NCBI GenBank assembly: GCA_024636345.1
Contig: JAGXHG010000004.1
Coordinates: forward strand, 186,001 to 250,000
DNA: 64,000 nt
Reading direction: 5' to 3'
Source: Desulfobulbaceae bacterium
Lineage (GTDB): Bacteria; Desulfobacterota; Desulfobulbia; Desulfobulbales; Desulfocapsaceae
The notes under the pieces are model-generated. The model had not been told where the DNA came from. It did not search any database and was given only the letters and a program-made list of their open reading frames with translations. This document shows positions 46,257 through 51,291 of the stretch, piece by piece; position 1 is the first letter of the stretch; the number at the start of each line of letters is the position of its first letter. Made by a program: the position numbers and the translations under genes.

Positions 46257-46574
46257 TTAAAAAGAGAGAAGTCGATCACTCTTGACTATTAGTTCATACA
46301 AATCATTTTGTTTACCGCGACTGTGATATCCGTCTTCCACTCCATGGAGGTCAAGGCACTTGCCTCAGGCAAGCAAAACACCTTCAGAGAGAGTAAAGAG
46401 TTTTGCAAGATCCAAAAGAGGAAATTCTTTAGTGGCGTTTTGGCTGTAAGAAACTGAAGGCCCATTAAGAAAAATTGTTACATCGTCCATTTTTTCAAGC
46501 ATGAGGTTCCCTAAACGAAATACATTCCATAAAATTTCCGGATTATCACTACATGCAATCAAGGTGATATTTAT
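46257..46574 (-). CDS. DsrE-family protein with in-frame TGA at the active-site Cys, probable selenoprotein
   Basis: The frame starts near 46574 (NITLIACSDNPEILWNVFRL) and runs with full DsrE similarity to LSEGVLLA, where codon 70 is TGA (46365-46367). It continues in the same frame as GKCLDLHG to NDLYELIVKSDRLLSF and a TAA at 46257. DsrE-like proteins have a CxxC at exactly this point and end in a similar helix, so the TGA stands for the first Cys, giving U-G-K-C. That is the pattern of a selenocysteine redox motif. The start is odd: AGGAAGG is followed after 6 nt by ATA, not ATG; the nearest accepted start, TTG, is four codons on. So it is either a nonstandard start or a lost one. An imperfect hairpin can form 10-31 nt after TGA. 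Confidence 0.72.
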
Positions 46575-46650
46575 GATTTCCCTTCCTGTAAAAGAATTGA
46601 GATAAGAATTTAATAATCAACTGGTGGGATCGGACCAAGCTATCCATTCA

Positions 46651-46713
46651 CTCTTTCAGGATACTGGTCCTCTAAAATGGCACTATTACCCCTCTATCTT
46701 CCTTTTTGTCACT
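46651..46713. repeat. Dispersed repeat R3, copy A
   Basis: About 63 bp (TTTCAGGATACTGGTCC, then AAAATGGCACTATTACCCC and a CTATCTTCCTTTTT end) matches 50981-51045 at roughly 80 percent. Both copies are intergenic and in the same orientation. Confidence 0.7.
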
Positions 46714-46821: not shown

Positions 46822-47628
46822 CTATTTCGCACGGAGGTATAAAACCTTTTGATTTGCGCCCGATGCTTGTCGTTCTTCTGTCACGAAGAGATCTGTCCTT
46901 GCTTTGACGAGATCAGAGAGCTTCTTGTAACCATATAGCCGAGGGTCAAAGTCAGGTTGCAGCTTGGTAAGGTAGCTCCCGAAGGTGCCAAGCTGTGCCC
47001 ATCCAGCGTCGTCAGTTGACTGCTCAAGTGCAGTGAGGACAAATTTTTTAGGGAATTTAAGGCTTGGCTCTGTTGTTTCGACCAGTGTCTGAGATCGCGT
47101 TGTTTTTTGCTCACTCTCAACTTTTGGCGGCAGACCAACAGGCTCGGCTTCGGTGCTGGGCCGCAGGACTTCAGTAAAGACAAACTTGTGGCAGGCATTG
47201 CGGAAGGCCATAGGTGTTTTCTTTTCACCAAATCCAAGAACCATGAGCCCCTCTTCACGCAAACGCATCGCCAGACCTGTGAAATCACTGTCGCTTGTGA
47301 TCAGACAGAAACCATCAAATTTACGCGTGTAAAGCAAGTCCATCGCATCGATAATCATCGTGCTGTCCGTGGCGTTTTTTCCGGTTGTGTACGTAAACTG
47401 ATGAACCGGCTTAATGGCGTATCGCTGCAATACCTTCTTCCATGAGGCGCTCGTCGGAGCAGTGAAATCGCCATATATGCGCCTCACAGTGGCCTCCCCA
47501 AACCGTGCGATTTCTGCAAGAAGACCTTCAATAACAGTAGCTTGAGCGTTATCAGCGTCAATCAATACTGCCAATCGAAGCGTTGGTTCTTCAGATTCAA
47601 TTTTTGCGACTTGTCGTGGGGTTACCAT
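46822..47628 (-). CDS. NYN-domain protein with C-terminal OST-HTH/LOTUS-like domain
   Basis: Residues 15-155 form a NYN (PIN-like) domain with acidic residues in LAVLIDADNAQ, TDSTMIIDAMDLLY and CLITSDSDFTGLAMRLRE, the expected metal-binding set for an RNase. The C-terminal 80 residues (FVLTALEQSTDDAGWAQLG to YLRAK) fit an OST-HTH domain, as in LabA-like proteins. GGAG precedes the ATG by 6 nt. The pairing suggests RNA binding and cleavage in the cytoplasm. It stands alone among repeats. Confidence 0.88.
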   Translation of the reverse strand: MVTPRQVAKIESEEPTLRLAVLIDADNAQATVIEGLLAEIARFGEATVRRIYGDFTAPTSASWKKVLQRYAIKPVHQFTYTTGKNATDSTMIIDAMDLLYTRKFDGFCLITSDSDFTGLAMRLREEGLMVLGFGEKKTPMAFRNACHKFVFTEVLRPSTEAEPVGLPPKVESEQKTTRSQTLVETTEPSLKFPKKFVLTALEQSTDDAGWAQLGTFGSYLTKLQPDFDPRLYGYKKLSDLVKARTDLFVTEERQASGANQKVLYLRAK

Positions 47629-50947: not shown

Positions 50948-51291
50948 AGTCCGTCCATCAAGGATTCACAGAAGGTTGTTCTCACTTTCTCAGGATACTA
51001 CTCCAATAAAATGGCACTATCCCCCTCTATCTTCCTTTTCGGCACCTAACAGTTGCCGTCGGAACTCGACGCCCAGATCCTGGGTGGAGATGATCGTGAC
51101 GATTTGCCATGGCCATGACAAACGAAAACATATAATGTCGTTTTTATCGTCAGAAAAATCGCATTCTTTACGCAAAATGACGGTTTTTATGGCATGTTGT
51201 TAGTAAATATCATTCTGTTAGCGTAACCCGCCCCCCGTGTAGTGGCTGAAACCGAGGTCCGCCCCCTATTGTCCTTAATCAATAAAACCTC
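50948..51291. other. Intergenic region with repeat R3 copy B, no gene seen
   Basis: R3 occupies 50981-51045, just upstream of the antiporter gene. The remaining sequence has a CGCCCCCTATTGT segment near 51262 but no supported frame or RNA. Confidence 0.5.
50981..51045. repeat. Dispersed repeat R3, copy B
   Basis: TTCTCAGGATACTACTCC, then AAAATGGCACTATCCCCC and CTATCTTCCTTTTC; see copy A at 46651-46713. The corresponding flank of the antiporter relic at 56990 lacks it, so R3 entered one copy after duplication or was lost from the other. Confidence 0.7.

Follow-up and report, generated by a model that had tools for sequence, protein, structure and literature searches.

A probable DsrE/YchN-fold selenoprotein from a Desulfobulbaceae genome, with an optional second cysteine among its close relatives

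What does a single in-frame TGA mean in a short reading frame that continues, without any other stop, to a C-terminus shared with its relatives? The question is raised by positions 46257..46574, minus strand, of a 64,000-nt stretch of a Desulfobulbaceae genome (contig JAGXHG010000004.1; the whole stretch is called the window here), where translation from 46574 to 46257 gives INITLIA...LLA-U-GKCLDLHG...NDLYELIVKSDRLLSF-stop (U for selenocysteine, Sec), that is, 105 codons and a TAA stop, with one in-frame TGA at codon 70 (46367-46365) and 35 more codons before the TAA; the plus-strand reading of the same positions has several stops. A preliminary description of this DNA had reported such a DsrE-like frame and the placing of its TGA on the first Cys of a DsrE-type CxxC, had proposed a probable DsrE-family selenoprotein with a U-x-x-C redox motif, and had advised looking for TGA or TGC in close relatives, for selA, selB, selC and selD in the genome, and for a bacterial Sec insertion sequence (SECIS) after the TGA. 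The frame is as described, on the minus strand, and the proposal of a selenoprotein holds up, being supported by TGA in the relatives, by selA, selB, tRNA-Sec and selD, by a hairpin and by the DsrE fold. It is highly likely that this is a stand-alone selenoprotein gene of the DsrE/YchN fold, selenoprotein and fold taken jointly, and comparison of sequences indicates that codon 70 very probably encodes Sec.

The comparison is built on a close branch of 41 distinct coding sequences from fetched loci, window included; counts out of 40 leave out the frameshifted L060, the partial L015 and L017 stand outside the 41, and at least four matches of a search through the order were also left out (second copy of G554, G579, G502, G509, G510). 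All 40 distinct intact sequences, the window's among them, carry TGA at codon 70 (46365..46367), and none of them has a Cys form there. Of 257 genomes in the order, 41 match at E<=1e-20; among the 42 matches (window included) 41 contain a lone TGA with no further stop, and the match in G091 ends after about 45 codons. In the phylum 72 of 395 genomes match at E<=1e-5, more distant groups included, and among near genomes 20 of 97 match at E<=0.001, counting distant paralogues and one truncated copy. A named genome collection gave 17 loci, titled as Desulfocapsa, Desulfobulbus, Desulfobulbaceae, Desulfocapsaceae or wider groups. Similarity extends to the C-terminus, with 27 aligned relatives 60-95% identical to the window protein. 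In a wider set of 75 rows (fetched loci only; pieces had to exceed 95 residues, which removed among others those of L060 and L074 and one from L094; L018 and L092 are one gene), the Sec column holds TGA in 63 rows and Cys in 12, and a Trp codon in none. The window's genome (2.96 Mb, 41 contigs, 83% complete) has one copy of the gene, the only other match having E 0.27.

The same genome encodes the machinery for Sec, all components scoring over their cut-offs: tRNA-Sec at 69.1 bits, SelA at 634, SelB at 394 and SelD at 376 (for the machinery and YedF families control genomes also match, mostly below cut-off, with 5, 2, 1 and 2 of 14 over it for the four machinery families and 0 of 14 for YedF, and only over-cut-off matches were used). 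Its SelD (L049, G000:C9:23604-24545) has an early in-frame TGA in KAAGUAAK, presumably the usual Sec site of SelD, and is probably also a selenoprotein. SelB is over cut-off in 83 of the 97 near genomes, and therefore the presence of the machinery leaves the patchy distribution of the gene unexplained. In L011 (G080) and L034 about 0.7-0.8 kb separate the DsrE selenoprotein gene from selB, the two being on opposite strands.

An Rfam scan of the whole window gave no match at gathering scores, and the SECIS was therefore tested through conservation. In 33 aligned genes, the excess of codon identity in pairs with the same residue averages 0.22 over codons 71-82, compared with 0.06 in codons 2-69 and 0.03 in codons 83-105; the codon of Val79 is GTG in 32 of 32 sequences with Val there (one sequence has Glu), and Ala69, preceding the TGA, is GCC in 31 of 33. 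RNAalifold, run on 34 sequences, returned a single structure, a 7-bp stem with a GGN loop in columns 18-34, which correspond to 46350-46334 and begin 14 bases past the TGA. Stem positions pair in 98.3% of cells, compared with 45-65% when the positions are slid, and two-sided changes occur in 6 cells against a shuffled mean of 1.2, a count reached by none of 500 shuffles; the clearest covariation is CTC/GAG versus CTT/AAG, in which the amino acid at residue 80 differs and the codon of Leu76 changes silently in step. Bacterial SECIS elements have been described as carrying a small apical loop with G downstream of the TGA (PMC1088965), and the close-branch hairpin fits that description as far as the available text of the paper gives it. 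The window's own copy (46334..46350, minus strand; loop 46343-46341) is weaker, with one C.A mismatch (C 46349, A 46335) due to GAA at codon 80, the sole GAA among the 32 Glu codons at that position.

The fold is that of DsrE/YchN according to structure prediction, the DsrE/DsrF fold being supported by the best of five models, with a poorly predicted loop at 71-80. PDB sequences gave no match to a close-branch profile and, with a wider-family profile, matched YchN at 9.9e-6; in alignment with E. coli YchN (PDB 1jx7) the TGA falls on the first of the two Cys of its CxxC. Against PF02635 (gathering cut-off 22.7) the window protein scores 15.5 and L034 17.8, with no match for L016, and among Sec or Cys relatives of the wider family five score 28.6-39.2 and one 44.3. 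NCBIfam gave no match, including to the YedF family TIGR03527, for these three branch members; two Sec proteins of the distant group match TIGR03527 weakly (18 bits, cut-off 110).

Several points weigh against the gene as I read it. ATA is a poor start codon; the window hairpin alone folds no better than its shuffles (z -0.61 and 0.08) and carries its one stem mismatch; only 2 pairs in the alignment show a double change, which 92 of 500 shuffles reach, and the number of pair types is also within the shuffle range (81 of 500). Three of the five structure models are poor, with a predicted local distance difference test (pLDDT) score of 41-45, and even in the best the segment next to the Sec, residues 71-80, averages 52. 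No conserved neighbour hints at a sulfur pathway when the predicted proteins around 23 loci are clustered (window excluded, flanks unequal in length), and Cys8, which closes the first strand and is present in 36 of 40 sequences, could offer the Sec of those an internal partner.

How might the protein work? SelB and Sec-tRNA would decode the TGA, aided by the hairpin 14 bases beyond; conservation shows that the codon is coding, and the insertion of Sec itself is inferred. The residue would sit where the third strand ends, at the site of Cys in the DsrE and YchN relatives, and its selenolate would take up sulfur or be oxidised and then pass its load to an external thiol or sulfur-carrier protein, a handover like that from the one cysteine of DsrE with TusA and DsrC, instead of an internal U-x-x-C switch. 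By analogy with these relatives, a selenolate acting as such a single nucleophile is the likeliest mechanism, though at somewhat under an even chance; that Sec is the sole reactive chalcogen of the branch, making the protein a dedicated selenium-based carrier of sulfur (or selenium) between proteins and a Sec counterpart of DsrE/TusD with no redox switch, is a bolder and more doubtful proposal.

The active site of the branch bears on this choice. All 40 close-branch sequences share Gly71, Lys72, His77 and Arg86, and 38 have His84; residue 73 (codon 46356..46358, Cys in the window) is Leu in 26, Cys in 13 and Ile in 1, and four sequences (L013, L055, L056, L057) have no Cys anywhere, as is also true of the two proteins fetched from a separate U-K-K-A group. 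The motif is U-G-K-[L/C] in the window's branch, mostly U-G-K-C in a middle group (Cys at +3 in 13 of 14 rows), and U-G-x-C with a further downstream Cys in the distant Sec group. A thioredoxin-like switch, with a selenenylsulfide made and broken between Sec70 and Cys73, is what the preliminary description and the published motif would suggest, and I hold it possible, if somewhat doubtful: the window protein and its three same-genus relatives do have UGKC, as the published U-x-x-C demands, the middle group nearly always has the second Cys, and published DsrE-like selenoproteins are listed as UxxC in those portions of the literature that are available, but 27 of 40 sequences have Leu or Ile at position 73 while Sec stays constant, four have no Cys at all, and parsimony on the 75-row tree needs at least six changes of the +3 residue (a tree of few columns, 102, with 36 of 71 inner branches open). 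The claim of a U-x-x-C motif thus stands for the window protein and fails as a property of the branch, of which, judged on the alignment, it is a poor defining feature; since so many members have Leu or Ile at 73 and some have no Cys at all, it cannot be the general mode of action, and because of the latter selenium must sometimes act without an internal partner.

The window gene is a new member of the already known DsrE-like selenoproteins. These were published in 2005-2008, as 'DsrE-like' (PMC1088965), as 'DsrE 1' and 'DsrE 2' (PMC2398784) and from Desulfovibrio vulgaris (PMC1794560), which bears out, from the available text of these papers, the statement in the preliminary description that deltaproteobacteria had yielded such proteins, and a 2026 review lists them with UxxC (PMC13188914, as available in part). 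In the accessible parts of these sources they are alike in belonging to the DsrE family, in having Sec in UxxC with a bacterial SECIS after it, and in having deltaproteobacteria among their sources; they differ in that the entries have UxxC, whereas in the window's branch the second Cys is optional and a Cys form absent (n=40). In the available table of PMC2398784 'DsrE 1' lacks a Pfam entry and its last figure is 0; I read this figure as no Cys homologue, so that 'DsrE 1' may be the window's branch. Within the open-licence literature on DsrE and selenoproteins, to the extent of its available text, no description was found of a DsrE selenoprotein without a second Cys, nor were the optional second Cys, Cys-free members or a branch without a Cys form met with in that on DsrE selenoproteins.

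Among better-studied proteins, E. coli YchN (1jx7) and the sulfur carriers DsrE/TusD (2hy5, 2d1p) have Cys where the window protein has Sec, and 2hy5 (DsrEFH) and 2d1p (TusBCD) are multi-subunit complexes, whereas near genes of the window's type no partner gene recurs. In DsrE a single conserved Cys carries sulfur (Cys67 in type II DsrEFH; PMC13293266, available in part). This type II system of sulfate reducers and cable bacteria resembles the window's branch, so far as that text shows, in occurring mainly in sulfate reducers and sulfur disproportionators and in relying on one conserved residue, and differs in using Cys and a three-gene complex; the words selenocysteine and seleno- are absent from the text of PMC13293266. 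YedF (TIGR03527) has a DsrE domain with CGxC and is linked to selenium use (PMC5322559, from its available text), but it has two domains and Cys, and the window's genome has a separate YedF with CGTC. Ordinary gene calling would cut the window gene short at its TGA, and none of the profile libraries used names its protein (no NCBIfam match, Pfam below cut-off). If Sec does act here without an internal thiol, the branch would be a natural test of why a sulfur-transfer fold needs selenium, for which the Cys-free members require no mutagenesis.

Is the window's own copy a working gene? Its start position (46572..46574) is ATA, and the purine-rich AGGAAGGG, a probable ribosome-binding site (46580..46587; AGGAGG in the three same-genus relatives), ends 5 bases upstream; further upstream in frame a TGA lies 14 codons before the ATA, with no ATG, GTG or TTG between, giving an open frame of 119. 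The odd ATA noted in the preliminary description is true of the assembly and private to this copy: the 41 distinct sequences start with ATG in 35, GTG in 4, TTG in 1 and ATA in 1, the window, and the same-genus relatives with ATG (L003, L005) or TTG (L004). The ATA may alike be an inefficient start, a start lost not long ago or a mistake in the assembly, and together with GAA at codon 80 it could mark a working but weakly expressed gene, very recent decay or assembly errors.

That the ATA, and perhaps the GAA too, is an artefact of assembly or of mixed strains is unlikely, though far from negligible: the same-genus relatives have ATG or TTG and are titled as metagenome-assembled genomes, which the window's genome may also be, but the frame around the ATA is clean. 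That the gene is starting to decay, with ATG and one SECIS pair lost and the protein no longer made, is improbable. In its favour are an ATA found in the window only, a GAA that disrupts a C-G stem pair, matches limited to 4 of the 17 genomes in the genus (some of them incomplete), and known decayed copies in L017 (G091:C224:2742-2888), which is truncated, with similarity over about 46 codons only and ATC as first codon, and in L060 (G194:C1:460431-460744, in a one-contig genome), which is frameshifted at the TGA so that profile positions 1-68 and 66-105 fall in two frames. Against decay, the frame is intact, and only 10 codons differ from all three nearest relatives, of which 7 are silent, 2 conservative and 1 the start. 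Nonsynonymous divergence (dN) from these relatives is 0.017-0.025 and synonymous divergence (dS) 0.22-0.40, compared with 0.013-0.017 and 0.24-0.37 among the three themselves, the dN/dS ratios being 0.06-0.08 and 0.03-0.05 (small numbers); with dN low relative to dS and the differences mostly silent, the protein looks to have been under purifying selection through most of the copy's separate history.

That the TGA is a true stop followed by a relic frame, or a Trp codon in this organism, is extremely unlikely, for beyond the mere presence of the TGA nothing suggests it, and protein and hairpin are conserved past that codon, the 75 wider rows have TGA or Cys there and never a Trp codon, and neighbouring genes with Pfam matches read normally under table 11.

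Around the window gene seven neighbours were scanned, giving NYN, cytochrome c, MsrA, Na+/H+ exchanger and DUF2254 proteins and two without a match; no adjacent dsrF/dsrH (tusC/tusB) turned up among these seven, where no dsrF/dsrH profile search was made. An operon was considered and rejected, the largest recurring neighbour clusters being found in only 3 of 23 loci; these clusters look like two-component regulators. Upstream lies a gene for an NYN + OST-HTH/LOTUS protein (46822-47628), with flanking DNA common to L023 and not to L024 or L025. Flanks shared with L024/G016, where the gene context differs, amount to 101 bases upstream (88%) and 268 downstream (77%). The 65 bases at 46648-46712, upstream of the gene, recur at 50982-51045 (85%), just upstream of the Na+/H+ exchanger gene; a mobile cassette was considered and set aside, each flank having just one partial second copy in its own genome (68 bases at 81%, 65 bases at 85%). 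Elsewhere in the family, L058 (G210:C1:9245-9562), of the middle group, has a TAG at the position of Trp16 besides its TGA, through decay or error, and in L077 (G466), L089 (G337) and L094 (G395) a Cys-form DsrE gene adjoins a Sec-form DsrE gene.
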